From positions 1-64,000 of the IMG/VR virus record IMGVR_UViG_3300042564_003366: a stretch of 64,000 bases of DNA. The stretch is one strand, 5' to 3'. Positions 35,360 through 50,635 of this stretch are shown in pieces. Both the position numbers and the translations under genes were made by a program. This DNA is from a virus. The notes under the pieces are model-generated. The model had not been told where the DNA came from. It saw nothing but the letters and a program-made list of their open reading frames with translations, and searched no databases. Position 1 is the stretch's first letter. Each line of letters starts with the position of its first letter.

Positions 35360-36463
35360 ATGGCAGTATATAAGTTTATAATATATAATCAAAATCCGAT
35401 ATGTGGTTCAAAATATGAGCAAAATATCAATACAAGTGGTTGTACTACTTTTCTATTAAAATTAAATAACTTATCAACATCAGAGGGACCATTCAATATT
35501 TATATTGATACAATCAATTCAACACCAATATATACAAATATTACCAGAAACCAATTATCCGCTGGCGTTCAATATAGCTTGGAGTGTCCAACGCCATCAG
35601 CAACAATACCATCTACACCATGTATTACAAGAACGCCAACGATAACTCCGACTGTAACAGTTACATCAGGTTTAATACCTACACCACCACCAACACCATC
35701 AATAACAAGAAGTGTTACACCAACAATAACAATAACTCCAAGTATAACAAGAACAATAACTCCAACACCGTCAATAACTCCAAGTATAACAAGAACAATA
35801 ACACCAACACCATCAATAACTCCAACGATAACTCCAACAAATACACCTTCAATTACGCCATCGAACTTGCCATTTTATGCTTATGTATTTGCAGAGCCAC
35901 AAACATATAATAATGGGGTTGAATTAGAAAATTACATGTTAAGTAGTGGTGCAACTTGGGGTGGATACCAATTCTATGGCGTACCAAGTACGATAGACTA
36001 TTCTAACAATTTAAATACATACGCACATTATTCTGGATGGACAAGTAATTCTAATAATTACATAACAAGCCCAACCAATATGTCATCAATAATAAAACAA
36101 TCAAGTGGTACGTCAGTTGATTCATTTGGTTGTACTCAGACCCAATATTCATTTGGTACCATACAGATAACAGAGTCTGATGTTAATCCAAACATTCAAT
36201 ATTTTTATACTATATGGATACCAATCGCTGGTGTTGGAAATAATTTAAATAGTATGATAATTGATGCTGGAACAAGTTTGTGTGGAAATGAATATTTAAA
36301 TAACGGTATTCCAGATGATATAATTTTGCAAAATGTAACCATAACAAGTGGCGCAGTTATACCACCAGGTAATTATAGGGTACTTTGGCTACCTATTTTA
36401 TATTTACCAATAACAATTCCATTATACAATAATATTTATATAAAAGGTGAAATAAAATACTAA
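35360..36463 (+). CDS. Thr/Pro-repeat stalk protein with a C-terminal beta head
   Basis: This 367-residue protein has an N-terminal beta domain (1-75) resembling the small proteins upstream. A low-complexity stalk follows (about 78-170), built of TP(T/S)IT-type units with occasional Arg (for example ITPSITRTITPTPSITP). A C-terminal globular domain (about 172-367) starts with FYAYVFAEPQTYNNG. The stalk is extended and rich in Thr and Pro, a typical O-glycosylation or prolyl-hydroxylation target. The gene lies just before a 2-oxoglutarate dioxygenase gene. It is likely an accessory tail fibre; the C-terminal head may bind a receptor. Confidence 0.68.
   Translation: MAVYKFIIYNQNPICGSKYEQNINTSGCTTFLLKLNNLSTSEGPFNIYIDTINSTPIYTNITRNQLSAGVQYSLECPTPSATIPSTPCITRTPTITPTVTVTSGLIPTPPPTPSITRSVTPTITITPSITRTITPTPSITPSITRTITPTPSITPTITPTNTPSITPSNLPFYAYVFAEPQTYNNGVELENYMLSSGATWGGYQFYGVPSTIDYSNNLNTYAHYSGWTSNSNNYITSPTNMSSIIKQSSGTSVDSFGCTQTQYSFGTIQITESDVNPNIQYFYTIWIPIAGVGNNLNSMIIDAGTSLCGNEYLNNGIPDDIILQNVTITSGAVIPPGNYRVLWLPILYLPITIPLYNNIYIKGEIKY
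35591..35868 (+). repeat. Thr-Pro repeat region within the 35360 gene
   Basis: This is a low-complexity coding repeat based on ACNCC(A/C)(T/A)C(A/N)ATAAC units encoding TPTIT/TPSIT/TRTIT. Related stretches occur at 51205-51655, 53569-53850, 55250-55470, 59601-59812 and 63766-63840. Confidence 0.85.
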
Positions 36464-36468
36464 ATAAT

Positions 36469-37056
36469 ATGGCAATAGGTTTTAAGCAATTTGTTCCAAA
36501 TTTAACAAATTACTACACATTCGCAACAGGATTTTCTGATATTGAATTAGAAGCAATTGAAAAATTAGCAGATAAAATACAATCTGAAAATGCATCTGTT
36601 TTAGGGTCTCCTAATAATGTTAATGATTATAGAAGGAGTACAATTAAATGGCTACCCAATGATGGGGAATATGCTTGGATATATGAGAAATTATTCAATT
36701 ACGCAGAAGAAGCAAATAATGTTATGTGGAAATTCAACATTGGAGACAATTTGGAGAAAATTCAATATACCATATATGATAGTTCAGATGCTGGAATGTA
36801 TGATTGGCATATTGATTGTGGTGATTCGTCACCATCTTGTTTTAGAAAAATATCTATAACAGTGCAACTTACAGGTCCTAATGATTATTCTGGGGGGGAT
36901 TTGATTTTGAAATATGGTAAAAATGATACATTCGTACCAAAAGATAAGGGTCGAGTGGTTATTTTTCCCTCATTTGCATTACATCGTGTTACTCCTGTTG
37001 AATCTGGTACTAGAAAATCTTTGGTTCTTTGGTTAGGTGGCTCATCATATAAATAA
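36469..37056 (+). CDS. Fe(II)/2-oxoglutarate dioxygenase, prolyl-4-hydroxylase-like
   Basis: This 195-residue enzyme is of the type that uses O2 and 2-oxoglutarate to hydroxylate a protein side chain. The metal-binding motif is H114-x-D116 (YDWHIDCGD) and H172 (LHRVTPV), with R182 placed to bind 2-oxoglutarate. The segment SGGDLILKYGKND and the RVVIFPSFALHRV strand match P4Hc/PKHD-type enzymes. It sits between a Thr/Pro-stalk gene and the collagen-like fibre gene, both plausible substrates. No signal peptide is present, so it would act in the host cytoplasm before virion assembly. A small-molecule or DNA/RNA substrate cannot be excluded. Confidence 0.85.
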   Translation: MAIGFKQFVPNLTNYYTFATGFSDIELEAIEKLADKIQSENASVLGSPNNVNDYRRSTIKWLPNDGEYAWIYEKLFNYAEEANNVMWKFNIGDNLEKIQYTIYDSSDAGMYDWHIDCGDSSPSCFRKISITVQLTGPNDYSGGDLILKYGKNDTFVPKDKGRVVIFPSFALHRVTPVESGTRKSLVLWLGGSSYK

Positions 37057-37092
37057 TTATATGGTTATATAAACAAATTTAAATAAAAAAAC

Positions 37093-37108
37093 TATTTATA
37101 TAATAAAA
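37093..37108 (+). promoter_or_regulatory. Candidate late promoter motif before the collagen-like fibre gene
   Basis: TATTTATATAATAAAA; the core (37093-37100) ends 15 bases before the ATG at 37116. It is the cleanest copy in the window. Confidence 0.6.
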
Positions 37109-37115
37109 TAATAAT

Positions 37116-40100
37116 ATGCCAACTAGAGTTAATTTTGGATCGCAAATTAAATTAAGTCCAATTGAGGTAGCTTGTAAATTTGCAACAACAACAAATGTAT
37201 CTTTTTCAGGTATATCAACCATAGATGGATTTAGTTTAACAACAAATGACAGGGTATTAGTTTGGCAACAAATATTACCAGAAGAAAATGGTATATATAT
37301 TGTATCTGGTGATACAAATTTGGTTAGAGCAAATGGAGCAAAAGTAGCAACTGATTTTAAAATAGGCCAACAAGTTTTTGTATATTCAGGATCCACAAAT
37401 GGCGAAAAACTATTCTATTTAAAGACAAATGTAACAACCATTGGTGTTAGCCCAATTGTATATGATGTTTTTGCTGGACTTAGTGGTTCATCTGGAACAA
37501 GTGGTAGTTCGGGTACGAGTGGTGGAACTGGTAGTTCAGGTGCAAGTGGTTCATCAGGAACAAGTGGAACGGATGGTACGAGTGGAAGTTCGGGAACAAG
37601 TGGAACTGATGGCACAAGCGGTTCATCAGGAACAAGTGGAACGGATGGTACGAGTGGAAGTTCAGGAACAAGCGGAACGGATGGCACAAGTGGTAGTTCA
37701 GGAACAAGCGGAACAGATGGTACGAGTGGTTCATCTGGCACAAGCGGAACGGATGGTACAAGTGGTAGTTCAGGAACAAGTGGGAGTAGTGGTACATCTG
37801 GTAGTTCAGGAACAAGTGGAACAGATGGTACAAGTGGTTCATCAGGAACAAGTGGTAGTAGTGGAGTAACTGGTACAAGCGGAAGCAATGGAACATCAGC
37901 ATTTATTGTGTCATCAGCATCAACACCATCACCAGTTAATTTGGATTCATCTTGTTATTGGTATGATACAACCAATAAATTGCCAATGGTTTCATATTAT
38001 GGATTTGGTAATATAAATTCTTGGTCAGCAGGAGGAGCAATGATAACAGCAAGACTATTATTAGAAGGAGCAGGAACTCAAAATGCAGGACTTGCTGTGG
38101 GAGGTTATACAAATGCAATGCCTGGAGTATCCTGCACCGAAGAATACGATGGCACATCTTGGTCAGCAGGAGGAGCATTGATAACAGCAAGATATACATT
38201 AGCAGTAGCAGGAACACAAAATGTAGGTCTTGCATCAGGAGGTTTTACAAATGTGAATGTCTCGTGTACCGAAGAATATAACGGCACATCTTGGTCAGCG
38301 GGAGGTGCGTTTATAACAGCAAGAAGTAGTTTAGCAGGAGCAGGGACACAGAATGAAGGACTTTTAGTAGGAGGTGTTTTAGTCTCAAACCCAGGAGTTT
38401 CCTGTACCGAAGAATACAATGGCACATCTTGGTCAGCAGGAGGAGCAGTAATAACAGCAAGATACGGTTTAGCAGGTTCAGGAACACAAAATGAAGCATT
38501 TGTAGCAGGAGGTTTTACAAATGCAGCAGTATCTTGTACCGAAGAATACAACGGCACATCTTGGTTAGCGGGTGGTGCAATGATAACGGCAAGAAGACAA
38601 TTAGCAGGTGCGGGAACACAGAATGAAGGGATTATGATAGGAGGAGGTACGATAGGTACATTTTTTTCTTGCACTGAAGAATATAATGGTACATCATGGT
38701 CAGCAGGTGGTGCATTGATAGTAGCGAGGAGAGGATTGGCAGGGGCAGGAACACAAAGTGCAGGACTTGCAGCGGGAGGTACGTCAAATACAAATCTAAC
38801 TTGTACCGAAGAATATTCTAATTTTGGTTTAATTAATAGTACAGGTGCAGGAACATCTGGAACAAGTGGAGTTAGCGGTAGTTCTGGTGTTAGCGGTTCA
38901 TCAGGAACAAGTGGTGCGGCAGGTTCGATGGGACCCCCAGGACCAAATGGTGCGCCTGGTGCAAGTGGTTCGTCAGGAACAAGTGGTAGTAGTGGAAGTA
39001 GGGGTACAAGCGGAGTAAGTGGTTCGTCAGGAACAAGTGGTGCGGCAGGTTCAATGGGACCCCCAGGACCAAATGGACCCCCAGGGCCTCCAGGACCTGC
39101 TGGAGCAAGTGCTGGAATTACATCATACACAAATCCAGCAGATAATAGAGTAATAACATCAGTTAATTCAACAACTATAAATGCAGAATCAAATTTAACT
39201 TTTGATGGTACAACATTAATTGTTACTGGAAATCAACAAGTTACTGGTGGTAGTTATGATTCGGGTATTACAAGAATAAATAATCCAGGTGGAGCATTTT
39301 ATACAACTACAACTGCAACAATCACTGGTGCATTTAGGATAGCTTTACCCACCGCTTCTGGTGGTCAGTTTCCAATGTTACAATTTACAATAAATATTTA
39401 TCGTTATTCTACAGGTTTAAGTACAAGAATTAGAGTGGGGGGACATATTTCAAGTAGTCTGTGGTATAATGTTTTTGCATATGCTATTACTGATTCTGCT
39501 CCTAATTATAATGTAAGATTTGGAAATAATGGTGGATCAGATATGTATGTTTGGGTTGGCGAAACAAGTACAGTATGGGAATACCCACAAATTTTTATAA
39601 CAGATTTCCAAAATGGATATTCTGCTATATCTTCTTTTTGGGCAACTGGATGGGCAATAACTCCTCAAACAAGTTTCAATACCGTTCAAATAACTAGAGC
39701 ATCTGCACTATCGTTAAATACAAATAATTATACTTCTTATTCTCCTACTTTAACAGGTACAGGTGCATCTGGTACTTGGGGTATTAGTATAACGGGTAAT
39801 GCAGATACTGTAGATGGATTTAGCGCATCTCAATCGACGATAGCAAACGGAATCGTAGTAAGAGATGCAAATGGATACATCTTTGGTAATTATATAAATT
39901 TAACAGATGATGGTAATCCTGGTGGAGGAACTTCCATCTCATCGTTTATAACAAAACAGGGTGATAACTACTATCGTTCAGTATCTCCGACTAATGCTAT
40001 GGTTTCAATTAGAGGTGTTGCATCTGGTACTTCTTGGGCTATAGGTGTGACAGGTAACGCTGGTTCTGTCACTTACTTACTTAATAGAACTGATTCAGCA

Positions 40101-40511
40101 TTTTATCAAGTTTTATGGGGTGCTGGTTATACTAATACTATTGGAACTATCGCATATTCTTGTGCTGGTGTTACTATCCAATCTAGTACTGGTACTTTAA
40201 GTGCAACAGTATTAACAGAAACATCAACAATAAGAATAAAAGAAAATATTGAAGAAATTCAGAATCCTTTAGATATAGTTAAAAAACTAAGAGGTATTAA
40301 GTATAATAAAATAGGAAATGATAACAAAGAAATTGGTGTTATTGCTGAAGAAGTCAACGATATTTTAAGTGAAGTTGTTGTTAAAGACAACGAAGGACAA
40401 CCATCTTCTGTTTCTTATGGTAGATTAACTGCATTATTAATTGAGGCTATTAAGGAACAAGATAAACAAATTGAAATTTTAAGAAAAAGGATTGATGATT
40501 TAGAAAAATAA
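37116..40511 (+). CDS. Tail fibre: collagen-like stalk, kelch-like repeats, S74 chaperone
   Basis: This 1131-residue fibre contains, in order: an N-terminal virion-docking domain (1-115, with DRVLVWQQILPEENGIYIV, typical of phage fibres); a Gly-Ser-Ser/Gly-Thr-Ser triplet stalk (about 121-258); and six kelch-like repeats of about 44 residues (302-568, each with AGGAxITAR and SCTEEYNGTSW). A second stalk with true collagen triplets (about 585-667, including GPPGPNGPPGPPGPAG) comes next, then a beta-structured head (about 700-1020) and an S74-type intramolecular chaperone (about 1028-1131). The chaperone begins STIRIKENI, where self-cleavage is expected, and ends in a coiled coil. It is probably a trimeric receptor-binding fibre. 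Confidence 0.85.
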   Translation: MPTRVNFGSQIKLSPIEVACKFATTTNVSFSGISTIDGFSLTTNDRVLVWQQILPEENGIYIVSGDTNLVRANGAKVATDFKIGQQVFVYSGSTNGEKLFYLKTNVTTIGVSPIVYDVFAGLSGSSGTSGSSGTSGGTGSSGASGSSGTSGTDGTSGSSGTSGTDGTSGSSGTSGTDGTSGSSGTSGTDGTSGSSGTSGTDGTSGSSGTSGTDGTSGSSGTSGSSGTSGSSGTSGTDGTSGSSGTSGSSGVTGTSGSNGTSAFIVSSASTPSPVNLDSSCYWYDTTNKLPMVSYYGFGNINSWSAGGAMITARLLLEGAGTQNAGLAVGGYTNAMPGVSCTEEYDGTSWSAGGALITARYTLAVAGTQNVGLASGGFTNVNVSCTEEYNGTSWSAGGAFITARSSLAGAGTQNEGLLVGGVLVSNPGVSCTEEYNGTSWSAGGAVITARYGLAGSGTQNEAFVAGGFTNAAVSCTEEYNGTSWLAGGAMITARRQLAGAGTQNEGIMIGGGTIGTFFSCTEEYNGTSWSAGGALIVARRGLAGAGTQSAGLAAGGTSNTNLTCTEEYSNFGLINSTGAGTSGTSGVSGSSGVSGSSGTSGAAGSMGPPGPNGAPGASGSSGTSGSSGSRGTSGVSGSSGTSGAAGSMGPPGPNGPPGPPGPAGASAGITSYTNPADNRVITSVNSTTINAESNLTFDGTTLIVTGNQQVTGGSYDSGITRINNPGGAFYTTTTATITGAFRIALPTASGGQFPMLQFTINIYRYSTGLSTRIRVGGHISSSLWYNVFAYAITDSAPNYNVRFGNNGGSDMYVWVGETSTVWEYPQIFITDFQNGYSAISSFWATGWAITPQTSFNTVQITRASALSLNTNNYTSYSPTLTGTGASGTWGISITGNADTVDGFSASQSTIANGIVVRDANGYIFGNYINLTDDGNPGGGTSISSFITKQGDNYYRSVSPTNAMVSIRGVASGTSWAIGVTGNAGSVTYLLNRTDSAFYQVLWGAGYTNTIGTIAYSCAGVTIQSSTGTLSATVLTETSTIRIKENIEEIQNPLDIVKKLRGIKYNKIGNDNKEIGVIAEEVNDILSEVVVKDNEGQPSSVSYGRLTALLIEAIKEQDKQIEILRKRIDDLEK
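37478..37890 (+). repeat. Collagen-like Gly-x-x coding repeat
   Basis: About 45 triplets alternate GTS, GSS and GTD. At the DNA level, variants of a 36-base unit recur with synonymous changes (aacggatggtacgagtgg-type), so the repeat is selected at the protein level and is prone to length change. Confidence 0.85.
38022..38820 (+). repeat. Six kelch-like repeats in the fibre gene
   Basis: There are six units of about 130-140 bases, each encoding WSAGGAxITARxxLAGAGTQ and then GLAxGG...SCTEEYNGTS. The same unit makes up the three genes at 44154-47037. Confidence 0.85.
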
Positions 40512-40513
40512 AC

Positions 40514-40521
40514 TATTTTTA
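40514..40521 (+). promoter_or_regulatory. Variant late promoter motif before the 40538 gene
   Basis: TATTTTTA followed by AATAAAA; it ends 16 bases before the ATG at 40538. It has one mismatch to the core but the same spacing. AAAGGAA just before the ATG is one of the few purine-rich leaders here. Confidence 0.4.
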
Positions 40522-40537
40522 AATAAAATGAAAGGAA

Positions 40538-40780
40538 ATGAAAAAGTATTATCAAGTTGAAAACTATGGACACGGATTTATAACTCACCAAGAGAATGAA
40601 ACGGCACATATTGCAGGTTTCCCAGGGAATATCTGGGTAACTGAAAACGTATCTTGGGCGCAAAGGGTTAATGCGGTGGAGAAGACAAAGGAAGAGGCTC
40701 AAGCAATTGTTGATGCTGCTGTTGCATCTTCATATACACCACCTAATAGCACAACTCCACCACCAATAATTTTACCTTAA
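40538..40780 (+). CDS. Small protein of unknown function following the fibre gene
   Basis: This 80-residue protein has the opening MKKYYQVENYGHGFITHQEN. It contains a small alpha/beta part and a Thr/Pro-rich tail ending in PPPIILP. No cysteine or catalytic motif is seen. It starts the operon that carries the dioxygenase and sulfotransferase genes. An ATG ten bases upstream is out of frame and quickly stopped, so 40538 is the start. Possibly a fibre assembly factor; function unknown. Confidence 0.62.
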   Translation: MKKYYQVENYGHGFITHQENETAHIAGFPGNIWVTENVSWAQRVNAVEKTKEEAQAIVDAAVASSYTPPNSTTPPPIILP

Positions 40781-40788
40781 AAAAAAAT

Positions 40789-41472
40789 ATGAAAAAAGAA
40801 TTACAAATTACAGAAGACTTAAAAGAGATTGTAAGTGTTTTGAATGAGGATGATGCACAAACCATTTTATTATTAAAAGACGAATTGGTTGATAATTGGC
40901 ATAAAAAGCAGATTTTTAGAACAGAAACAGAAATGAGAGTTTCTGTTTTAAATGATGCAAAACATCCTACAAATGCTTCCAAATACTGGCAATCAGTAAG
41001 AGAAATGTCAGCACATTTTGATGCTTTGATGAATTTATCTTTTGATTTGAGGAAAAATACAGTAGACAACTTACGTCTTGATAAAAAGATGCAAGACTTA
41101 CTTGAAAATGAAGATGAGAATAAGTTTGATATTATGGATGCACAAATAGACCTCGATAGAAATTTATATGATAGGTCATGTATGTTGCAAGTTGCAAAGG
41201 ATCGAGTTAGGGAATTGAGTCTATGGAGTACTATAAAGAGAGAATTAGATGATAGTTCTTTTGATGTAGAAAATGTAAATACGCATCAAGCGGAATCATT
41301 ACATAGATACTTTGAAAATAGGGTTAAATCTTTAAACGATTCATCTGCACCAGGCGAGATTATTAATGCTATGGGTCCTTATCTATCATTCAATAGATTG
41401 AAGACTGATGATGGAAAATTGAAAAACTTCTTGGGTGAAGTAACCGAGGATACAAAAAAGAAATTAAATTAA
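40789..41472 (+). CDS. Helical protein of unknown function, similar to T4-like cyanophage proteins
   Basis: This 227-residue, highly charged, mostly helical protein contains RTETEMRVSVLNDAKHPTNA and the phrase DVENVNTHQAESL. I recall very similar proteins of unknown function in marine T4-like cyanophages, where they also sit among structural and dioxygenase genes; this is from memory and unverified. No metal-binding or ATP-binding motif was seen. It lies 8 bases after the small gene and 2 bases before the dioxygenase gene, so it is cotranslated with the modification enzymes and may serve them as an adaptor. Confidence 0.68.
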   Translation: MKKELQITEDLKEIVSVLNEDDAQTILLLKDELVDNWHKKQIFRTETEMRVSVLNDAKHPTNASKYWQSVREMSAHFDALMNLSFDLRKNTVDNLRLDKKMQDLLENEDENKFDIMDAQIDLDRNLYDRSCMLQVAKDRVRELSLWSTIKRELDDSSFDVENVNTHQAESLHRYFENRVKSLNDSSAPGEIINAMGPYLSFNRLKTDDGKLKNFLGEVTEDTKKKLN

Positions 41473-41474
41473 TT

Positions 41475-42059
41475 ATGACCAATTTTATCTACACCAAAAA
41501 AAATGCAATATCTGCTAATACGTGTTATAACTTAATAAAAACATTTGAAGCGTCAGATTTAAAGCAGGCTGGTGTTTTATATGGACCGAATGGTGTATCA
41601 TCTAATAGTGATAAAAAATCAACAGATATAACTTTTGACCCATCCTTCCTAAAAAAAGAAGGATGGGCAATTTTATTAGAAGAAGTAATTGGAACAATTC
41701 AAAATGGTGTTTCAGATTATTTAAATAGGCATTCTACCGCAATGAGTAAAATGGATCCTATTGACTTATATACGTATTTCAATATGCAGAAGTATGAGCC
41801 AAATGAAGGGTTTTATGGCTGGCATTGTGAAAGAGCAGGCGTTAAGCATTCAGATAGGTTGCTAGTTTGGATGATATATTTAAATACTTTAACAGATAGA
41901 GGTGAAACAGAGTTTTTTTATCAGCAACATTTCGAAGAACCAGAGAGAGGAAAATTAGTTATTTGGCCTTCAGATTGGACACACTTACATAGAGGTGTTC
42001 CATCACCAACAGAAACAAAGTATATTTTAACAGGTTGGTTTACACACAATAAAGTATAA
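41475..42059 (+). CDS. Fe(II)/2-oxoglutarate dioxygenase (HxE type)
   Basis: This 194-residue enzyme has proximal metal ligands H117-x-E119 (FYGWHCERAG), a distal His at 170 or 172 in DWTHLHRGVPS, and K182 near the cofactor site (TKYILTGWF). Glu replaces the usual Asp in the HxD motif, as happens in some family members. The fold and order resemble phage P4Hc proteins. It is two bases downstream of the helical protein and four bases upstream of a second dioxygenase gene. Together they look like a cascade acting on a fibre protein, but the substrate is not known. Confidence 0.82.
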   Translation: MTNFIYTKKNAISANTCYNLIKTFEASDLKQAGVLYGPNGVSSNSDKKSTDITFDPSFLKKEGWAILLEEVIGTIQNGVSDYLNRHSTAMSKMDPIDLYTYFNMQKYEPNEGFYGWHCERAGVKHSDRLLVWMIYLNTLTDRGETEFFYQQHFEEPERGKLVIWPSDWTHLHRGVPSPTETKYILTGWFTHNKV

Positions 42060-42063
42060 AGTT

Positions 42064-42660
42064 ATGGAATTTTCAATACATGAAGAAACTTGGTTTTCAA
42101 CACCTATTTGGGAATCAGAGGTTAAAAACATAAACAATGATGAAATTAAGGATTATTGTTTATGGTTAAGGGAAAATACAAGAGGTGCGACCATTTCAAA
42201 TAGAGGTGGTTGGCATAGTAGTGAAATTGCATTACCATTACCAAGTGATTTAACAAAATTATTTAGCAATCTTGAAATATTTGTTAATGAAAACTGTTTT
42301 AAACATTTGGGCATTGACAACTTGAAGTTTGGGAATTTTTGGGTTAATATTAATACACCAGGGTCTTATAACTTATTACACGATCACCAAAATAGCATAT
42401 TATCTGGCGTGTATTATGTATCAGTTCCATTTGATAATATGGGTGATTTGGTTTTACATAGAGGCGATAATGCGGAGTATTTTTTAAAATCAGATGTGGA
42501 AAGAATTAGCACAAAAACAAACTCATTTACATCAGTTAAAAAACCTATTGAATCTTTCTTTTATATCTTTCCATCTTGGGTTAAGCATCATGTTGAATCA
42601 AATGAATCACAAGGCGAGAGAATATCAATAGCGTTTAATTTTGTACCTAATAATAAATAA
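42064..42660 (+). CDS. Fe(II)/2-oxoglutarate dioxygenase of the TIGR02466 type
   Basis: This 198-residue protein has the pattern of the TIGR02466 family of putative dioxygenases: FWVNINTPGSYNLLHDHQNS, then LSGVYYVSVP, and later FFYIFPSWVKHHVESN followed by ERISIAFNF. The metal ligands are probably among H106/H108 and H175/H176, with R186 for 2-oxoglutarate. Such enzymes are common in T4-like marine phages, and their substrates are unknown. It stands between two other dioxygenase genes with spacers of 3-4 bases. Confidence 0.84.
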   Translation: MEFSIHEETWFSTPIWESEVKNINNDEIKDYCLWLRENTRGATISNRGGWHSSEIALPLPSDLTKLFSNLEIFVNENCFKHLGIDNLKFGNFWVNINTPGSYNLLHDHQNSILSGVYYVSVPFDNMGDLVLHRGDNAEYFLKSDVERISTKTNSFTSVKKPIESFFYIFPSWVKHHVESNESQGERISIAFNFVPNNK

Positions 42661-42663
42661 AAT

Positions 42664-43302
42664 ATGAACGCACAAGTCTATTCTTTATTTCCAACACCAT
42701 TATATGTTGCAAATTATGACAAAGATATTAAAGAAGTAATTGATTATTTTGATAAGTGTGAAATGTTGGACACAAAGAGTGGTTATGGGATGATATCAAA
42801 AAATAGTTATATATTAGATAATCCGATATGTGATGATTTGAATAAATTTCTAATGTCTTGTTTTGAAGATTTTGCAACAAACATTATGAGATATAGGTTT
42901 AAAGAATTGGCATTTGCTCAATCTTGGCTAACATACAAGAACCCAAACCAGTTTCATAAAGCCCATACACATCCAAATACATTATTGGCTGGAGTGTTCT
43001 ATTATGATGCACACGAGGATGATGCTGCAATATGCTTTTCAAAAGAAGTGAAGTCATTTAATAGATCATACTTTGAACCATCATTAATTGATGATTATCA
43101 AAATCATATTTTTTCACAAGAAGAGATATATTATATGCCAAAGAAAAATGATTTTATTATATTCCCATCATGGTTGACACATGGTGTACCACCAAATAAA
43201 ACAAATAGAGTGAGGAAGGCATTAGGTGTCAATGCTTTAACAAAAGGCACATTAGGTGATAAAGAAACCATATCAGAAATTATATTTGGAAGATACGCAT
43301 GA
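42664..43302 (+). CDS. Fe(II)/2-oxoglutarate dioxygenase of the TIGR02466 type
   Basis: This 212-residue enzyme starts NAQVYSLFPTPLYVANYD (typical of this family: xLFPTPLxxxxx). It has FHKAHTHPNTLLAGVFYYDA with candidate ligands H101/H103, and IIFPSWLTHGVPPN with the distal His173 and an Arg nearby. It is a distant paralogue of the preceding gene, arranged in tandem. Its stop overlaps the sulfotransferase ATG by four bases. It is presumably part of the same modification pathway. Confidence 0.84.
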   Translation: MNAQVYSLFPTPLYVANYDKDIKEVIDYFDKCEMLDTKSGYGMISKNSYILDNPICDDLNKFLMSCFEDFATNIMRYRFKELAFAQSWLTYKNPNQFHKAHTHPNTLLAGVFYYDAHEDDAAICFSKEVKSFNRSYFEPSLIDDYQNHIFSQEEIYYMPKKNDFIIFPSWLTHGVPPNKTNRVRKALGVNALTKGTLGDKETISEIIFGRYA

Positions 43303-44117
43303 AACAAAAGATATTTTTTAATTCAACATTACCGAGAAGTGGTAGTACATTACTTCAAAATTTGCTGGGACAAAATCCTGAATTCTTTGTAACTCCGACA
43401 TCAGGTCTAATTGATTTGATGTTAGGAGCAAGAATAGGTTATAATCAAAACTATGAATCAAAAGCAGGTGATACAGAAATGTGGAGAGAAGGCTTTTATA
43501 AGTTTTGCTCATATGGAATTGATGGATATATAAAATCACAAACATCAAAACCATATTATTTGGATAAGAATAGAGTTTGGGCATTTTACTACAATTTATT
43601 AACGCATATTGTAGAAAAACCAAAAGTATTGTACATGGTTAGAGATTTACCATCCATCTTCGCTTCAATGGAGAAGAAGTTTAGAATGAATCCTGACAAA
43701 GATGACGGAACCATGGATAATGTAAAGATGAAAGGAACTACAACACATAAGAGAGTTGAATTATGGGCTCAATCACATCCTGTAGGTTACTCATTAGAAA
43801 AATTATATCAGACTTTGCTGGATGGTACAGCAAGTAATTTTTTATTTATAAGATACGAAGATTTATGTATTAATCCAGAAAATGTTATGAAAAGCATCTA
43901 TCAATATTTGGAGTTGGATGAATTTAAACATAATTTCCAACATATAAATCAAGTTACAACTGAAAATGATGCAATACATGGAATATATGGAGACCACATC
44001 ATAAGGAATTCTCTTAAAATGTTGCCAAATGATTCGAAAGAAATATTAGGAACACATACCGTAGATTTGATTAAGGAAAATTATAAATGGTATTATGATT
44101 TCTTTGGGTATAAATAA
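43299..44117 (+). CDS. PAPS-dependent sulfotransferase-like protein
   Basis: This 272-residue P-loop protein carries the two PAPS-binding motifs of sulfotransferases: LPRSGSTLL (11-19, the 5'-phosphosulfate loop) and VRDLPSIFASM (114-124, the 3'-phosphate loop). FLFIRYEDLCINPENVMKSI is the usual downstream helix. It would transfer sulfate from PAPS to a hydroxyl or amino group on protein, sugar or lipid. The four-base overlap with a dioxygenase gene suggests that it modifies a group made by hydroxylation or glycosylation. No membrane segment is present, so it acts in the cytoplasm. Confidence 0.87.
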   Translation: MKQKIFFNSTLPRSGSTLLQNLLGQNPEFFVTPTSGLIDLMLGARIGYNQNYESKAGDTEMWREGFYKFCSYGIDGYIKSQTSKPYYLDKNRVWAFYYNLLTHIVEKPKVLYMVRDLPSIFASMEKKFRMNPDKDDGTMDNVKMKGTTTHKRVELWAQSHPVGYSLEKLYQTLLDGTASNFLFIRYEDLCINPENVMKSIYQYLELDEFKHNFQHINQVTTENDAIHGIYGDHIIRNSLKMLPNDSKEILGTHTVDLIKENYKWYYDFFGYK

Positions 44118-44130
44118 AGTTGGGAGAGGA

Positions 44131-44145
44131 TATTTATAATAAAGT
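44131..44145 (+). promoter_or_regulatory. Candidate late promoter motif before the kelch-like gene array
   Basis: TATTTATAATAAAGT; the core (44131-44138) ends 15 bases before the ATG at 44154. It drives the three tandem propeller genes, which have no copy of the motif between them. Confidence 0.55.
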
Positions 44146-44153
44146 AAATTAGT

Positions 44154-45092
44154 ATGGCAAAATTACAGAGTAGTGAAATAGTAGGAGTAGCAAATAGACC
44201 TGCAACAATATGTTCAAATACGATGTGCATTTGGTTTGACACAACTAATTTAAAAACGGTTATTTCCTATTGTGGTTATGGAGCAGGTACTTGGTCAGCA
44301 GGAGGTGCATTAATAATTGCAAGAGCATATTTTGGTGGAACAGGAACTCAGAATGAATCTTTAGTAGCAGGAGGTTCAGGTGTAACTGGAGATGCATCAT
44401 GTACAGAAGAATATAATGGAACATCATGGGCAGCAGGAGGTGGTCTTATAACAACAAGATATCATCATGCTTTATTAGGTACACAAAACGAGGGTCTTGC
44501 GGTAGGAGGATATGCTTATCCAACACCTGCGGTAAGATGTACAGAAGAGTATAATGGCACATCATGGTCAGCAGGGGGTGCTTTGATATCAGGAAATTGG
44601 CTGATTATGGGAGCAGGCACACAGAACGTTGGGCTTGTTGCTGGAAACGCATGTACTGAAGAATATAACGGTGCTTCTTGGTCGGTAGGAGGTGCTATGA
44701 TTGTAAATAGGAATTATTTAACAGGAGGTGGTACACAAAACGAGGCTTTTGCATCAGGTGGGGGTGGGCCAGTAAATTGTACTGAAGAATACAATGGTAT
44801 TTCTTGGTCAGCAGGTGGGGCAATGATAACTGCAAGGTATAATTTAGAAGGTAGTGGTGCTCAGAATGCGGGTATTGTAGCGGGAGGTATATCAAGTACA
44901 TGGCTATCTTGTACAGAAGAGTACAACGGTAACTCTTGGTCAGCAGCTTCAGCAATTTCAACAGCTAAAAGAGGTTTAGCGGTTTCAGGTACACAACAAT
45001 CAGCTTTAGCAACAGGAGGTGTATCTAGTCAGTATTGGGGGGATACACAAGAATATAACAAATCATTCACAATAATAGATAGCATTCAATAG
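44154..45092 (+). CDS. Stand-alone kelch-like repeat protein, first of three paralogues
   Basis: This 312-residue protein has an N-terminal 45-residue strand/hook segment (MAKLQSSEIVGVANRPATIC, then CIWFDTTN) followed by six kelch-like repeats of about 44 residues. These have SAGGAxIxxR and TEEYNGTSW at regular intervals, with one shortened repeat near the middle. The repeats match those inside the 37116 fibre, which also carries a CYWYDTTN variant of the hook. It probably folds as a six-bladed propeller that binds a host surface sugar or protein. It is the first of three adjacent paralogues. Confidence 0.72.
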   Translation: MAKLQSSEIVGVANRPATICSNTMCIWFDTTNLKTVISYCGYGAGTWSAGGALIIARAYFGGTGTQNESLVAGGSGVTGDASCTEEYNGTSWAAGGGLITTRYHHALLGTQNEGLAVGGYAYPTPAVRCTEEYNGTSWSAGGALISGNWLIMGAGTQNVGLVAGNACTEEYNGASWSVGGAMIVNRNYLTGGGTQNEAFASGGGGPVNCTEEYNGISWSAGGAMITARYNLEGSGAQNAGIVAGGISSTWLSCTEEYNGNSWSAASAISTAKRGLAVSGTQQSALATGGVSSQYWGDTQEYNKSFTIIDSIQ

Positions 45093-47010: not shown

Positions 47011-47037
47011 TACACAATAGTAGATTGTATCTTATAA
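46066..47037 (+). CDS. Stand-alone kelch-like repeat protein, third paralogue
   Basis: This 323-residue protein opens with MAKLQSSEVVGVANRPATIC and CLWYDTTN, followed by six repeats. Repeats 3-4 are more diverged, with a longer loop (NQTPSGGPRVC). It starts 10 bases after the previous gene and ends 28 bases before the GT9-like glycosyltransferase. As with its neighbours, the conserved Trp, Gly-Gly and Thr-Glu-Glu-Tyr positions support a propeller, and the loops are variable. Confidence 0.72.
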   Translation: MAKLQSSEVVGVANRPATICVNTVCLWYDTTNLKPMASYCSRSGAGVWSAGGALITGRRESGGGGAQNEAFIVGGYINTHLTCTEEYNGTSWAAGGGLITSRYTLAGAGSQNVGLAIGGYTTGYVGCTEEYNGTSWTAGGALITVIGYQAAAGTQNEAVIGGGYNQTPSGGPRVCTQEYNGTSWSTSNNMITARYVLSGMGTQNSGLAAAGYSTACTSCTEEYNGTSWSVGGALINSRWASAGAGTQNEGLIMAGWIGSPISCTEEYNGNSWTTANPTIVARATYWGAGSQGSALIGGGYTPTHVSCTEEYLKSSYTIVDCIL

Positions 47038-47065
47038 TTTACATACAACAAAAAATAGTTTTAAT

Positions 47066-47941
47066 ATGAATAAATACATTGTTTGGCACATTCAAGGTGG
47101 ATTAGGAAAGAATGTTGCAGCAACAGGATTACCAAAGACAATAAAAGAAGTATATAGTGACAGAAAACTTATAATGGTTGTATCGTATCCCGAAGTTTTC
47201 CTAAACAATCCTTATGTTGATAGGGTTTACCCATTAGGTAATTGCCCCTACTTTTACGAGGATTTTATAGAGAATAAGGATACCCTTGTTTTTAGGCATG
47301 AGCCGTATCATCAGACAGGACACATACACAAGACAAAGCATTTAATAAGTAATTGGTGTGACTTACTTGGAATAGAATACAGCAATCAAATACCTCAATT
47401 ATATCCTAATTACTCAGAAAAGATAAATGCGAAGAAATGGTTTAGGGATAAGCCAGTTGTGATATTGCAGACATCTGGTGGAGAGTTAGAATCAAAGAAT
47501 ATATATTCGTGGTGTAGGGATATGCCACAAGATATTGCACAAATGGTTGTGGATAAGTATAAGGATTCACATAATATATTTCACATAACGAGGCAAGGGG
47601 GTTATGTTTTGAATGGTGTGGAGAGGGTTGATATGAAGTTATCCAATATGGAGTTATTTGGTATGTTGACCGTATCATCAAAGAGATTTTTGATTGATTC
47701 ATCTTTGCAACATGCAGCGGTTGCGATTAATTTACCATCGGTAGTATTTTGGGTTGGAACATCCCCCCAGGTTTTTGGTTATGGTATTCATACAAATATT
47801 GTGGCGAACAAGATTAACAATAAGAATCATTTGATTGGATCTTATTTATTTGATTTCCAGTTTGATTACAATATTTATGAGTGTCCGTATAGCAGTTTGG
47901 AGGAGATGTTTGATTTGGAGAAGGTGGTTAGTGTGTTATAG
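47066..47941 (+). CDS. GT9-like (heptosyltransferase family) glycosyltransferase
   Basis: This 291-residue GT-B-type protein has the family N-terminal loop (HIQGGLGKNVAATGL) and the C-terminal nucleotide-sugar region (RFLIDSSLQHAAVAINLPSV, then FWVGTSPQVFGY), as in ADP-heptose:LPS heptosyltransferases. It could add a sugar to a host glycan or to a phage protein. Its 3' end overlaps the convergent triple-domain glycosyltransferase by six bases, an intimate tail-to-tail pairing. It is somewhat short for the family (about 320-350 residues). Confidence 0.8.
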   Translation: MNKYIVWHIQGGLGKNVAATGLPKTIKEVYSDRKLIMVVSYPEVFLNNPYVDRVYPLGNCPYFYEDFIENKDTLVFRHEPYHQTGHIHKTKHLISNWCDLLGIEYSNQIPQLYPNYSEKINAKKWFRDKPVVILQTSGGELESKNIYSWCRDMPQDIAQMVVDKYKDSHNIFHITRQGGYVLNGVERVDMKLSNMELFGMLTVSSKRFLIDSSLQHAAVAINLPSVVFWVGTSPQVFGYGIHTNIVANKINNKNHLIGSYLFDFQFDYNIYECPYSSLEEMFDLEKVVSVL

Positions 47942-50635
47942 TAGGTGTTTTATTTCATTTATCACATCTTGTGTTGTAATGCTTTTTTGGCATTCGTGTT
48001 GTCTTGGTGTATCTTTATGTATTGGGCACCAGTTCCAATCACCTTTATCGAACTTAAAGTTGGGGTTTGACCAACAGGAGTTGCAAACATTATGATTATA
48101 TATTCTAATGCAATTTGTTTTAAATTCGTGGTTTACGTCTGAGAAATTTCCAATAACGGCTGTTTGTTTGTTTAATGCCCAAGATAGCCAACTTAGACCA
48201 CTTGCAAGACCGATGAAGAATTCTGAATGGTGAATATAATTCATTACATTTTGTATATTATAATTGGTTGGGGTTAAGGCGTTTTTGACGTTGTTTCCTT
48301 CTTTGGAAACATTAACAACGGTATAATTTAATTTATTTAAGTATTCTGTTAATTCATTCCATCCATTTGGATATTGCCAGAATTTAAGCGCAGCGGTTGA
48401 ATCGGTGGCTATTGTTATGTATTTTTCTTTTAAGGGTCGTGGTGAGGCTTCTAGGTGGGTAATTGGTCTTATTTCTTTGTGTTCCAATCCTAGAATATTT
48501 GTTGCTGCCATTTGTAATGGTATGGTATTTGGCAATATGGGTTCCATATCAGGGTTGTAGAACCATCCTAGTGCATATTTTGCATATATGTTATGAACAA
48601 CTTTGCCTGGGGTTGTAAATTCAATATCTGGGTATGTTTTTTCAAATAATTCATTCCAGAATGTTGAGGTGATAACATGACAATTATGTTTATCTTTAAA
48701 TTCTTTGATATAAGGCATCCAAGCTACGGTATCTCCCAATGATTTTGAATCCATTGCAATATAAACCCTTTTGTTTTGGAAAGATATTGGGATGATTTCA
48801 GTTTTGTTATTTTGTGTTATGGATATTTCCCAATCAATAAAGTATTTTTTTGATGCTCTTGCCCAATTATTTCTTCCAATATTTGTTGTATATATAATAT
48901 TATTTGTTTTCTTATCTTTAAATGATATATCATATCTTACATTTGGTCCCCCCTTTATTTCAACAAATGGACCATCAATAAAATGGCAAATAATGGTTGG
49001 AGTTGCCACAGTTTTGTCAACTTGGTAAATATCATAAGATGCAAAATGGTGAACGCCTTCCAAATCAAATAAGGTTTTTGTTGGGGTATTGGTATCATTT
49101 ATTTTAAAATTATGAGCATTTAAGGTTTCATATGTTTTTAATTCAAACATTTTGAAATTTTCATAAAATGATTCTTTTGATTGGAATAAATTAAAATATT
49201 GAAGCATCGGGTTAATATTCCCCGAGAAGAAATTTGTTCTATAACCCATATCATCATTTGGATAAAATTTAAAATCAAAATCATCCAATATGTTATAATG
49301 ATTTGTTAATGTGTTTTTGTCTGGGATAACATCATAATTTATGATATGAATTTTCTTTTTATTTAATCCATTTGCCAATAATAATCCTTGTTGGATTAAT
49401 TTATATACCGCATAACTATGTTCAAACGGCATTGGATATTCATCTTTTTGATTTGTTTTGGGATTTAATACCCATCTATTGAATATAACATTGTGTGTTT
49501 CATATTCTGATGCCATTAATATGGGATTATCTTGGGAATACAGTACATAATCACAAGATTGTTGAATTTGGTCATCAACGGGGAAATTGCAAGATAATAT
49601 AATATCAGTATCAATTGAGGATAGGCAACGTTGTAGAAGATTTTGTCTTGATAAGTTATTGCAATGAGCCAGAACGATTGTTATTTCATCTTCTTTCTTA
49701 TCATTATTTTCATTTAATAAATCAATTAATATTTGTTTATTTTCAATTGGATTATCTGTTGAATATCTTGCCCTTTTATCGTAATACCCTTCATAAGTTT
49801 CAAGATCCTTTGTTATTAACTTTAAATTATGTGCCAAAGCCTCTTTTAAGGATATTGGGTTTAATTCAAATTTTGATGGAAAATAGAATAAATCAGCAGC
49901 AGCGTAATAATCATAGGTATTATCCTTTTCCCCGTGCATAATGCAATTGGATGGCAAGGTGCTTAATAATGGTTTCCAATAATGTTCAAAATTGCCAGCC
50001 ATATTGCCAACAAAGTGAAATAATATATTTTCATTTGCGCATAGTTTCGCCACCTCGATAATCTCACCTTGGTTTTTTCCTTCCGTAAATAAGCCAACAT
50101 GAAGAACATGTTTGAATTTGGGATCAAAACCCAATTTCTCTTGTGCCAGAAGTTTATTTGATTTTATTTTTGGAACGGGGTATTCCCATATTGTATTTGG
50201 GGTGTTTAATGAATTGAATTTCTTTTTGCTCCATTCTGACACCAAAATGTATTTATCTGGTTGGTATCTAATATCATTTGGATTTGTGAATGAGCCGTGG
50301 GTGGTTACAAATATGTTATAAGGTCTATCTTCGATAAATATTTTATCCAAAATGGAATCTGGTAAATCAAATTCTGGAATTTCTTGGAAATGAATTATGT
50401 CTGGGGAAATATCATTAATGATATCAAGTATTTTTTCTTTATTTTCGGGTAAGGTATATACTGTAACTAGTTCTTTTATTTTGTTTTTCTGAACAACATA
50501 ATCATTTGTTACATTTTTTATTTCAATAACTGATATGTTATATTTTTTCTGAAAATAATTAATTTGTGTTAATAAATATTGGGGCAATCCACCAGTTGAT
50601 AAGTGTGGTGTTATGAATAAAAGTTTTTCTTTCAT
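47936..50635 (-). CDS. Three-domain glycosyltransferase: GT4, GT-A-like, and TibC/Aah-like O-heptosyltransferase
   Basis: The start is the ATG at 50635 (899 residues); 13 extra in-frame residues upstream are not part of the GT4 fold. Residues 1-315 are GT4-like (LLFITPHLSTGGLPQYLL at the start; VLHVGLFTEGKNQGEIIE; FPSKFELNPISLKEALAH). Residues about 318-540 resemble a GT-A-type domain. Residues about 543-899 match autotransporter O-heptosyltransferases of the TibC/Aah type. They contain a beta domain with GPFVEIKGG, AMDSKSLGDTVAWMPYIKEF, GLASGLSWLSWAL, and four Cys (851, 854, 870, 882) in CNSCW, DWNWCP and ECQK. Such enzymes glycosylate adhesins on Ser, so phage fibres are a likely substrate. 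It is the larger of the two minus-strand genes. Confidence 0.8.
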   Translation of the reverse strand: MKEKLLFITPHLSTGGLPQYLLTQINYFQKKYNISVIEIKNVTNDYVVQKNKIKELVTVYTLPENKEKILDIINDISPDIIHFQEIPEFDLPDSILDKIFIEDRPYNIFVTTHGSFTNPNDIRYQPDKYILVSEWSKKKFNSLNTPNTIWEYPVPKIKSNKLLAQEKLGFDPKFKHVLHVGLFTEGKNQGEIIEVAKLCANENILFHFVGNMAGNFEHYWKPLLSTLPSNCIMHGEKDNTYDYYAAADLFYFPSKFELNPISLKEALAHNLKLITKDLETYEGYYDKRARYSTDNPIENKQILIDLLNENNDKKEDEITIVLAHCNNLSRQNLLQRCLSSIDTDIILSCNFPVDDQIQQSCDYVLYSQDNPILMASEYETHNVIFNRWVLNPKTNQKDEYPMPFEHSYAVYKLIQQGLLLANGLNKKKIHIINYDVIPDKNTLTNHYNILDDFDFKFYPNDDMGYRTNFFSGNINPMLQYFNLFQSKESFYENFKMFELKTYETLNAHNFKINDTNTPTKTLFDLEGVHHFASYDIYQVDKTVATPTIICHFIDGPFVEIKGGPNVRYDISFKDKKTNNIIYTTNIGRNNWARASKKYFIDWEISITQNNKTEIIPISFQNKRVYIAMDSKSLGDTVAWMPYIKEFKDKHNCHVITSTFWNELFEKTYPDIEFTTPGKVVHNIYAKYALGWFYNPDMEPILPNTIPLQMAATNILGLEHKEIRPITHLEASPRPLKEKYITIATDSTAALKFWQYPNGWNELTEYLNKLNYTVVNVSKEGNNVKNALTPTNYNIQNVMNYIHHSEFFIGLASGLSWLSWALNKQTAVIGNFSDVNHEFKTNCIRIYNHNVCNSCWSNPNFKFDKGDWNWCPIHKDTPRQHECQKSITTQDVINEIKHLL

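Follow-up and report, generated by a model that had tools for sequence, protein, structure and literature searches.

A conserved glycosyltransferase, sulfotransferase and oxygenase gene cassette beside phage fibre genes, and its possible role in virion decoration

A 64,000-nt stretch of viral DNA (the window), belonging to a 72-kb fragment of a T4-like virus, encodes four 2OG-Fe(II) oxygenases, a PAPS-type sulfotransferase (SULT), a glycosyltransferase of the GT9 fold and a multidomain glycosyltransferase among fibre-type genes. A first-pass annotation had proposed that these enzymes form one system acting on the phage's own fibres; its ORF positions were reproduced and the observation as a whole was confirmed. 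In many related phages much of the gene set turns up again as a cassette of conserved order, next to fibre or tail genes, which argues for one system, with the exception that two of the proposed members, the oxygenase DO1 and the glycosyltransferase GT3dom, are absent from the nearest relatives (L003-L008). We give a probability of roughly one half to the reading that the fibre proteins of the virion are decorated by a glycosylation-sulfation pathway of the phage's own, which often includes hydroxylation.

The four oxygenases, all on the plus strand, score above the Pfam cut-off of 27 bits for 2OG-FeII_Oxy_3/_5, and each carries a predicted metal triad, HxD/E(/H)...H, with a distal Arg or Lys, the ligand roles in DO3 and DO4 being assigned by position. 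DO1 (36469..37056), which lies between a Thr/Pro-stalk gene and a collagen-like fibre gene, is PKHD/P4H-like (PF13640, 49.8 bits; PKHD-type hydroxylase 3dkq, E 4.3e-9), and its putative ligands H114xD116..H172..R182 are kept in 11/11 aligned rows, all these oxygenase counts being of rows that passed a length filter. In DO2 (41475..42059; HxE..H..K; PF13640, 44.3 bits), H117 and E119 are kept in 17/18 rows and H172 and K182 in 18/18. DO3 (42064..42660) belongs with Oxy_5 and TIGR02466 (PF13759, 82 bits; TIGR02466, 84.3 bits against an NCBIfam cut-off of 62.5) and keeps H108, H175 and R186 in 22/22 rows, while DO4 (42664..43302; Oxy_5; PF13759, 64.5 bits) keeps H101xH103..H173..R184 in 31/31.

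SULT (43299..44117, plus strand) matches Sulfotransfer_3 (PF13469, 65.8 bits against a cut-off of 27), and its nearest solved relatives are protein-tyrosine sulfotransferases (profile E 1e-10). In PAPS sulfotransferases, PRxGST is the 5'-phosphosulfate motif and an Arg/Ser pair binds the 3'-phosphate. Both are found here, P12, R13, G15, T17, R115 and S123 being invariant in 27/27 aligned rows, an alignment that left out five further matches (the split L104 pieces, L017, L079 and L092). The enzyme is predicted to transfer sulfate from PAPS; its link to APS kinase is a genetic one. The GT9-like gene (47066..47941, plus strand) is matched by nothing in Pfam or NCBIfam at E<=0.01; its AlphaFold (AF2) model (pLDDT 88.8) finds GT9 enzymes as best Foldseek matches (3tov, E 1.8e-9; WaaF, TibC, WaaC), and the 22 best are all GT9 or TibC at probability 1.00, pointing to the GT-B fold of GT9. 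The catalytic Asp of GT9 enzymes lies close to the N-terminus; at about that place the protein has an invariant GGLGK with Lys15, so its donor and activity are uncertain. The first-pass assignments of the four dioxygenases, the PAPS sulfotransferase and the GT9-like gene are thereby borne out, the first two by family scores and conserved residues and the last by predicted structure.

Two further genes open the cassette. The first, sm80 (40538..40780, plus strand), is small and conserved with a variable tail, gave no match in a PHROG search and lies upstream of gp227 in most maps. The second, gp227 (40789..41472, plus strand), encodes a helical protein with a weak phrog_1409 match; its AF2 model (pLDDT 73.7) matched no viral fold at E<=0.001, and tblastn against 50,697 phage records gave no match at 1e-5. 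Spacers are short: 5 nt between the stalk gene TP367 and DO1, 2 between gp227 and DO2, 4 between DO2 and DO3 and 3 between DO3 and DO4, with a 4-nt overlap of DO4 and SULT.

Relatives of the GT9-like gene occur at 68 viral loci, which fall into 36 clusters, and comparison shows that sm80, gp227, the oxygenases, SULT and GT9 make up one conserved cassette, its gene order kept across 40-95% identity. SULT is near GT9 in 28/36 clusters, on the same strand in 28/28, and lies within 5 kb in 19 of the 24 where both flanks reach that far. By comparison, gp227 was detected in 17/36, sm80 in 16/36 and DO1 in 10/36, where it sits inside the cassette. Some clusters keep GT9 and SULT without oxygenases, so this pair is the core. 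GT9 stands without SULT in four clusters with both 5-kb flanks (L060, L073, L074, L091), and a search elsewhere in SULT-less records found it in 0/8, a blank that is unvalidated. None of 80 nrdB loci had SULT, GT9, APS kinase or DO-type oxygenases, a control that represents the replication region rather than cargo inserted in the fibre region.

The neighbours in the window are largely fibre-type genes on the plus strand. TP367 (35360..36463), upstream of DO1, encodes a Thr/Pro-stalk protein (maximum Thr+Pro 0.62 in 60 aa), and COL1131 (37116..40511) a collagen-like fibre with 47 consecutive G-x-y repeats that matches tail-fibre families (e.g., phrog_8745, 3e-41) and also phrog_27227. Between SULT and the GT9-like gene lie PROP1, PROP2 and PROP3 (44154-45092, 45105-46055 and 46066-47037), candidate acceptors; one to five such genes occupy this place in close relatives. 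They had been called propeller fibres; we describe them as kelch-like proteins of fibre type, a reading based on the repeat GG..EEYNGTSW of PROP1. PROP1, the only one scanned, has no Pfam match and matches solely phrog_27227, a family of unknown function. In L003-L009, L054 and L055, sm80, gp227, DO2-4, SULT and GT9 are 76-95% identical versus 50-72% for the PROP and COL genes, so the fibre genes beside the cassette change faster than the cassette itself.

A similar setting is seen in many relatives. Twelve of 22 long records (cluster mates included) hold the fibre-associated family phrog_27227 at distances of 41-6630 nt to GT9 (with random placement as the null, Fisher p is 1.6e-10 when overlaps are barred and 0.003 when they are allowed), and the tail-spike family phrog_4636 lies within 2.6 kb of GT9 in 5 of the 10 that lack it. 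Kelch-like motif genes occur within 6 kb of 11/36 GT9 clusters versus 0/54 loci without GT9 or SULT. For example, L273 has the order collagen-like protein, an 86-aa ORF, gp227-DO2-DO3-GT9-SULT and two collagen/kelch proteins. Several observations speak against a fibre acceptor: neither PHROG family is near GT9 in 5/22 long records (G017-G020, G022); only 14/36 clusters have at least one of three features, a collagen run, a Thr/Pro stalk or a strict kelch motif, at 6 kb or less; of the 7 long records with a tail sheath, only 2 have it that close to GT9; seven clusters (L075, L079, L080, L085, L088, L089, L091) are flanked on one side by replication-type genes, including a DNA primase for L075; and neither the distant SULT relatives in S-SCSM1 and S-SKS1 nor the oxygenases in S-SCSM1, S-CAM1, S-RIM2 and P-TIM68 adjoin annotated fibre genes. 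Moreover, co-location with fibres would be expected of whatever cargo had inserted into a fibre region.

Two expectations about the acceptor fared poorly. Thr/Pro stalks (Thr+Pro >= 0.45 in 60 aa) are hardly typical partners, lying within 6 kb of 1/36 GT9 clusters and within 10 kb of 4/36. Pro hydroxylation of the collagen-like repeats is likewise weakened: the third Gly-x-y position of COL1131 holds Ser 53 times, Asp 7 and Pro 5, and Gln or Ser is the commonest third residue in 10/10 collagen-like proteins examined from relatives. A collagen prolyl-4-hydroxylase system, whose substrate Pro is rare there, was rejected for that site specifically.

GT3dom (47936..50635, minus strand) is an accessory gene. 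Its listed ORF starts at TTG 50674; a relative aligns from residue 14, which favours the start at 50635 given in the first-pass annotation. Of the three domains described there, two stand, an N-terminal GT-B domain (Glycos_transf_1, 39.8 bits versus 26.4 in Pfam) and a C-terminal TibC-like protein O-heptosyltransferase; the middle region has no match in a Pfam scan. Four Cys form the iron finger of TibC-type enzymes, and an Asp is catalytic. The C-terminus has both the equivalog score of this family (TIGR04414, 281.5 bits against an NCBIfam cut-off of 200) and these residues: 345 residues align to TibC (4rb4, E 2.7e-53) with the four Cys kept, and an LGD aligns to 4rap, whose Asp is absent from 4rb4. 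Unlike the homologous autotransporter enzymes TibC and Aah, GT3dom has 900 aa, bears the GT-B domain and adjoins phage fibre genes. TibC is a known protein glycosyltransferase, and the homology therefore supports protein modification; GT3dom would be an optional second glycosyltransferase, probably O-glycosylating Ser/Thr of a phage protein. The L009 clade has it and so, in a more diverged form, does L055; in both it is accompanied by relatives of HintTP745 (50735..52972, plus strand), a Hint-like domain (PT-HINT 3.5e-5, below cut-off) followed by a Thr/Pro stalk. TibC-like glycosyltransferases are not enriched with the cassette (5/16 records versus 5/20 control contigs), and among 14 TibC-like regions from other records, two have a Thr/Pro ORF of at least 0.45 no more than 6 kb away (L055; L033, where the ORF has 89 aa) and two have a collagen run at such a distance (L022, L111).

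From the enzyme families and motifs, the conserved order, the location and the linkage to APS kinase, all directly observed, we infer a chemistry, an order and timing of steps, and fibres as acceptor. The GT9-like enzyme would add a sugar to a fibre protein, and SULT would then transfer sulfate from PAPS onto that sugar; zero to five 2OG oxygenases may hydroxylate residues or glycan, perhaps creating attachment sites. In many relatives an APS-kinase-like gene, a HIGH-motif nucleotidyltransferase and DUF2061 would secure PAPS. None of the three was found in the window record, and this virus would draw on host PAPS or on genes beyond the fragment.

That the enzymes instead remodel the host surface (LPS, capsule or EPS) by glycosylation and sulfation, e.g., blocking superinfection or adsorption to debris, is unlikely. 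The cassette is embedded in a fibre region, no polymerase or flippase family appears among the sampled neighbours scanned with Pfam, and T4-like phages are normally lytic; on the other side, the LPS heptosyltransferases WaaF and WaaC are among the closest folds to the GT9-like protein, and a marine bacterium is reported to have a sulfated capsule whose synthesis is described from genomic data (PMC11766843).

The APS-kinase linkage, which supports the glycosylation-sulfation pathway, also bears on a further alternative, quite improbable in our judgement, in which independent auxiliary metabolic genes gathered at a permissive locus, the APS kinase serving sulfate assimilation and the oxygenases host metabolism or AlkB-like repair. 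APS kinase is the PAPS-making step. An APS-kinase-like gene sits in 12/36 GT9 clusters and in many relatives adjoins SULT (in L097 a full-length APS kinase, E 2.7e-61, directly follows it), and the nine over-cut-off APS kinases in the 22 long records (7 clusters) all lie within 6.4 kb of GT9. Among 43 APS-kinase clusters, the nucleotidyltransferase is present in every one and SULT in 14, versus 0/25 control clusters (p 0.001). This proximity and the conserved gene order argue against independent genes, as does PAPS reductase (PF01507), found in 0/30 APS-kinase records, possibly fragments, and in 14/14 control genomes; on this ground the usual reading of the kinase as a gene of assimilatory sulfate reduction is disfavoured. 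Against the glycosylation-sulfation pathway, 29/43 clusters have no cassette-type SULT (11 have only motif-level candidates, two of which, when tested, had no Pfam match), and only 3/14 of those with SULT have a collagen run, Thr/Pro stalk or strict kelch motif within 6 kb. Lone oxygenases elsewhere favour independent genes, as do excerpts in which viral CysC is assigned to assimilatory sulfate reduction (PMC9529941) and P4H-like genes of cyanophages to AlkB-like repair (PMC2984593). Like that CysC, possibly of the same family, the APS-kinase-like proteins here are short and on phage contigs; here they are linked to SULT, with no PAPS reductase found in the 30 records.

An acceptor other than a fibre, either sm80 or a secreted small molecule of a RiPP-like or natural-product pathway, is very unlikely: the small, conserved sm80 comes early in the cassette, and related islands also include genes for halogenase and carbamoyltransferase, but 20/36 clusters, some cut short, have GT9 without detected sm80. 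DNA hypermodification by an oxygenase and a glycosyltransferase acting on bases, a logic used by some phages, is highly improbable, since the oxygenases match Oxy_3/Oxy_5, no TET/JBP or DNA-glycosyltransferase family is among the matches listed (Pfam and PHROGs for the oxygenases; Pfam, PHROGs and NCBIfam for the glycosyltransferases), and to our knowledge a sulfotransferase has no place in such a scheme.

More broadly, and more tentatively, tailed phages might build sulfated glycoprotein fibres by a self-contained pathway of a sulfate activation unit (APS kinase, minimal nucleotidyltransferase and DUF2061), the GT9-like enzyme, SULT and variable tailoring by up to five oxygenases, with a halogenase or carbamoyltransferase in related islands. 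If so, a large share of viral "cysC" and many 2OG oxygenases of viruses, now filed under host metabolism, would be virion-decoration genes. If the glycosylation-sulfation reading holds, some viral cysC and tail-linked oxygenases would make that move, a vague auxiliary-gene class would yield a prediction open to direct test (fibre glycopeptides shifted by +80), and a function would be gained for phage sulfotransferases, whose role "remains unclear" in the excerpted text of a 2023 paper (PMC10580990).

Glycosylated phage particles are already known, to which predicted sulfation (and hydroxylation) would be added. Mycobacteriophage capsids and tail tubes are glycosylated (Freeman et al. 2023, as cited in excerpts of PMC12363180 and PMC12619734, the latter also mentioning phage DNA glycosylation); there phage-encoded glycosyltransferases decorate the phage's own structural proteins, as is predicted here, whereas here a syntenic GT9, SULT and oxygenase cassette, in some relatives with APS kinase, lies by fibres. 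Giant viruses resemble it in a virus-encoded sugar pathway, reportedly proposed for surface fibrils (PMC10117803), and differ in infecting eukaryotes. The marine T4-like phages Mosig EXVC030M, HTVC008M, S-CREM1 and P-RSM6 lack the GT9-SULT pair in the stretches compared, by annotation and, for HTVC008M, also by blastp. They share tandem 2OG oxygenase genes, annotated gene by gene, near tail-fibre, fibre-assembly, neck or collagen-like genes, together with tryptophan halogenases; in the pelagiphage Mosig the oxygenase run lies between fibre and neck genes.

The window derives from a 72,399-base IMG/VR record, has a GC content of 32%, and is part of a T4-like myovirus fragment that encodes baseplate wedge proteins, a UvsX-like recombinase, a DnaB-like helicase, and ribonucleotide reductase. 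All of the genes named in the first-pass annotation are present and belong to the families given there, with two qualifications: the glycosyltransferase at 47066 (GT9) retains its family by predicted fold only, and of the three domains described for the minus-strand glycosyltransferase (GT3dom), the first and last were identified while the middle one was not confirmed. Alignment with relatives indicates that putative catalytic ligands are kept in all four 2OG-Fe(II) oxygenases (DO1-DO4), as are the PAPS-binding motifs of the sulfotransferase at 43299 (SULT). The GT9-like enzyme has a Lys, invariant among relatives, near the position where GT9 enzymes presumably carry a catalytic Asp. The predicted fold of the cassette protein gp227 had no match among viral models at E ≤ 0.001. 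The putative late-promoter motif TATAAATA occurs 32 times in the window relative to 22.6 expected, a number reached by 4 of 100 shuffles; one plus-strand copy is found ~60 nt upstream of the collagen-like gene, another ~37 nt upstream of the kelch-like gene PROP1, and none precedes sm80 or gp227 on that strand.

A SULT scan of viral contigs identified 17 loci, many of which (L009-L015 and L018) represent a single phage. The close loci share, as far as their contigs extend, the order sm80-gp227-DO2-DO3-DO4-SULT, one to five kelch-like genes, and then GT9; L007 and L019 have an FkbM gene inserted ahead of DO2, and in L007 this one-lineage methyltransferase occupies 7396-8169, between gp227 and DO2. 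The divergent loci L016 and L017 are arranged as sm80-SULT-APS kinase-HAD (L016)-nucleotidyltransferase-gp227-DO3-GT9, without DO2 and DO4, the HAD-type phosphatase of L016 (11250-11594) being 114 aa in length. No match to gp712, gp90, DO1, or the Thr/Pro-stalk protein TP367 of the window was found in the eleven compared loci. A search for the same gene set in related phages had been proposed as a check, and a syntenic cassette does indeed recur among both these loci and those of a wider GT9 scan.

The latter scan yielded 68 loci that formed 36 clusters at 90% identity. SULT was present in 28 of these clusters, invariably on the same strand (28/28); it lay within 100 nt of GT9 in 13 clusters and within 5 kb in 19 of the 24 having 5 kb on both sides, with L089 (5.5 kb) as the twentieth. 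Oxygenases, numbering one to five per locus, were found in 26 of the 36 clusters and went undetected in the other 10, some of which end early. In the deepest relatives (L095, L096, L097, and L099), whose GT9 is ~40-46% identical, SULT sits by GT9 and no oxygenase was detected. The eight SULT-less clusters had no SULT elsewhere in their records; four of them end short at a flank (L053, L063, L069, and L076), and the absence looks real in L060, L073, L074, and L091. A conserved enzyme system with a glycosyltransferase and a sulfotransferase at its core is well supported.

Genes associated with sulfate activation accompany this core. Within the cassette, an APS-kinase-like gene occurs in 12/36 GT9 clusters, a HIGH-motif nucleotidyltransferase in 11/36, and DUF2061 in 10/36 (and in 31/43 APS-kinase clusters), the DUF2061 counts coming from a profile built on two sequences; none of the three is in the window record. 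Family calls by Pfam/NCBIfam cover three APS-kinase-like, two nucleotidyltransferase, and two DUF2061 members, plus L016 and L097. The kinase profile best matches solved APS kinases (E 1.7e-18), all nine APS kinases over the Pfam cut-off in 22 long records (seven clusters) sit 9-6320 nt from GT9, and in L097 a full-length APS kinase directly follows SULT, flanked by two repeat-rich proteins. Conversely, 43 APS-kinase clusters, drawn from the best 80 of at least 574 loci, all contain the nucleotidyltransferase, usually adjoining the kinase, with SULT in 14 and GT9 in 10. Control loci around nrdB, which samples a replication region (best 80 of 473 loci; 25 clusters), contained a single nucleotidyltransferase and lacked SULT, GT9, APS kinase, and oxygenases; SULT enrichment in APS-kinase versus nrdB clusters gave p = 0.001, with kinship treated by clustering only. 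A figure of 25/43 that includes the candidate "sulfotransferases" ST2 and ST3 is not relied on, because these were recognised from an N-terminal motif, and the single member of each that was scanned had no Pfam match. Since the nucleotidyltransferase resembles NMN adenylyltransferases, a role in sulfate activation is only a guess from its linkage. The first part of phrog_10255 matches the kinase and its last part the nucleotidyltransferase, which suggests the existence of fused forms. Islands of the two genes were also seen in other phages (L124 5291-11951 and similar loci). With one member of each gene type scanned, APS-kinase islands additionally hold oxygenases, unrecognised PRxxST/GRxGST-motif proteins, tryptophan halogenase-type genes (6/43), and carbamoyltransferase-type genes (10/43).

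In the 22 long records, which include some cluster mates, phrog_27227, a family seen in fibre proteins of this analysis, lies 41-6630 nt from GT9 in 12, and the tail-spike family phrog_4636 lies within 2.6 kb in five of the other ten; neither is near GT9 in the records of L095, L096, L097, L098, and L104, with L097 and L104 having repeat-rich neighbours without a PHROG match. The S74 chaperone family is found in 12 of the 22. Tail sheath is near GT9 in two of the seven long records containing it, and a sheath-type gene, assigned by PHROG in L056 and by clustering in the other six, follows within ~6 kb in L056, L059, L061, L064, L068, L069, and L082. Across the 36 clusters, when motifs are counted strictly, kelch-like genes occur within 6 kb of GT9 in 11, collagen runs in 6, Thr/Pro stalks in 1, and any of these in 14. 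The corresponding proportion for any such gene within 6 kb is 3/14 in APS-kinase clusters with SULT and 1/29 in those without SULT and GT9, and 0/25 in nrdB clusters. Replication-type genes flank seven of the GT9 clusters on one side, with fibre-like genes in between in L089 and L091. The compact cassette of L273 comprises a collagen-like protein, an 86-aa protein, gp227, DO2, DO3, GT9, SULT, and two collagen/kelch proteins, the first of which matches tail-fibre PHROGs.

Comparable arrangements are found in four of eight inspected stretches from cultured phages. In Mosig, four genes annotated as 2OG oxygenases belong to a run that is placed between fibre and neck genes and includes genes named ferrochelatase and endonuclease V, the names of PHROGs also matched by window oxygenases. 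A comparable run in HTVC008M is bordered by a neck gene and by large hypothetical proteins, of which one matches the collagen-like fibre COL1131 over 103 aa. In S-CREM1, a collagen-like protein and a tryptophan halogenase are followed by nine oxygenase/JmjC genes, and in P-RSM6, five annotated oxygenases accompany two halogenases and genes for tail-fibre assembly. In S-SCSM1, S-CAM1, S-RIM2, and P-TIM68, oxygenases lie amid photosynthesis, nucleotide, or replication genes. Finally, AG-345-L05, a marine virus from single-cell data, carries two relatives of SULT, one of GT9 (44%), and a weak match to an oxygenase close to a protein of 916 aa that contains a Thr/Pro-rich stretch (0.40).

The C-terminal domain of GT3dom passes the equivalog for autotransporter O-heptosyltransferases and aligns with TibC over 345 residues, four Cys included; this homology is the strongest single pointer to a protein acceptor. 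GT3dom itself is accessory to the cassette. Among close relatives it was observed only where a Hint-Thr/Pro gene is also present (the L009 clade and L055); L003-L008 and L054, a number of them truncated contigs, lack both. A TibC-like enzyme was rejected as a core part, having been found in 5 of 16 author-chosen cassette records (including L033, originally found by GT3dom search) versus 5 of 20 control contigs without GT9 and APS kinase, with one below cut-off in each set. Four of the five cassette-record copies lie within 4 kb of GT9-SULT genes, and seven TibC-like regions that were examined had neither a Thr/Pro ORF nor a collagen run within 6 kb.

In the portions of the literature consulted, the function of phage sulfotransferases "remains unclear" (PMC10580990), estuarine virome auxiliary metabolic genes include a sulfotransferase and a 2OG oxygenase (PMC12285232), cyanophage P4H-like genes are interpreted as AlkB-like repair and a proposed tryptophan halogenase role is termed speculative (PMC2984593), and mycobacteriophage virion glycosylation is cited (PMC12619734 and PMC12363180). 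No open-access paper on a phage glycosylation-sulfation cassette was found among the matches listed, and none joined phage sulfotransferase, glycosyltransferase, and tail fiber; cysC auxiliary metabolic gene and sulfotransferase; or phage prolyl hydroxylase, collagen-like, and tail fiber.

The best explanation, to which we assign a probability of about 0.5, is a pathway for glycosylation and sulfation, often with hydroxylation, acting on virion fibres. The phage's own fibre would be the most economical acceptor given the genes' location and the TibC homology, at about even odds, and host-surface glycans are the main rival acceptor. Cassette proteins are 76-95% identical to those of the window versus 50-72% for kelch-like and collagen-like fibre proteins (the 24% value for DO3 of L006 reflects alignment to DO4, as the L006 contig begins inside the cassette). 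Slow-changing pathway genes beside fast-changing fibres are how shared decorating machinery would be expected to look, and the same contrast would equally be expected of a metabolic module that is conserved but sits at a variable locus. Viral CysC is interpreted as assimilatory sulfate reduction in PMC9529941; PAPS reductase was not found in 30 APS-kinase records and was found in 14/14 control genomes. Protection of Thr/Pro stalks, as initially proposed, fails as a general role, an ORF with Thr+Pro ≥0.45 in 60 aa lying within 6 kb in 1/36 GT9 clusters and within 10 kb in 4/36 (at ≥0.40, 2/36 within 6 kb and 5/36 within 10 kb), and the suggested prolyl hydroxylation of fibres is not favoured for collagen repeats. 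Tyrosine sulfation of the repeated EEY in kelch-like proteins was considered, given that TPSTs are the nearest sulfotransferases of solved structure, and was set aside because the Tyr belongs to the repeat motif and, from the kelch pattern, is presumably buried.

Several loci have additional features. In L104 (9998-11696), both GT9 and SULT are broken up, each into two ORFs, through either sequencing error or decay. In L043 (10877-15233) and some relatives, GT9 is followed by a second block encoding a 305-aa protein, a 309-aa DUF6445-type protein, a 604-619-aa GT2-type protein, and a 221-aa GT2. The L273 contig was binned with an uncultured Flavobacteriaceae genome, possibly a host hint or a binning artefact; in bacterial and archaeal genomes, 2 of 35 GT9-like pattern matches were confirmed, one within a Flavobacteriaceae MAG, on a contig that resembles phage, and one at 33%. 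Thr/Pro-rich ORFs of 2642 aa (53299-61227, in the window) and 2766 aa (61306-69606 of the record, past the window end) are followed by a third that is interrupted by the record end. HintTP745 (50735-52972) has a Hint/intein-like domain at approximately residues 39-151, ending in VHNQ and followed by a Thr/Pro stalk; it may possibly be a self-processing fibre, the domain scoring under Pfam cut-offs.
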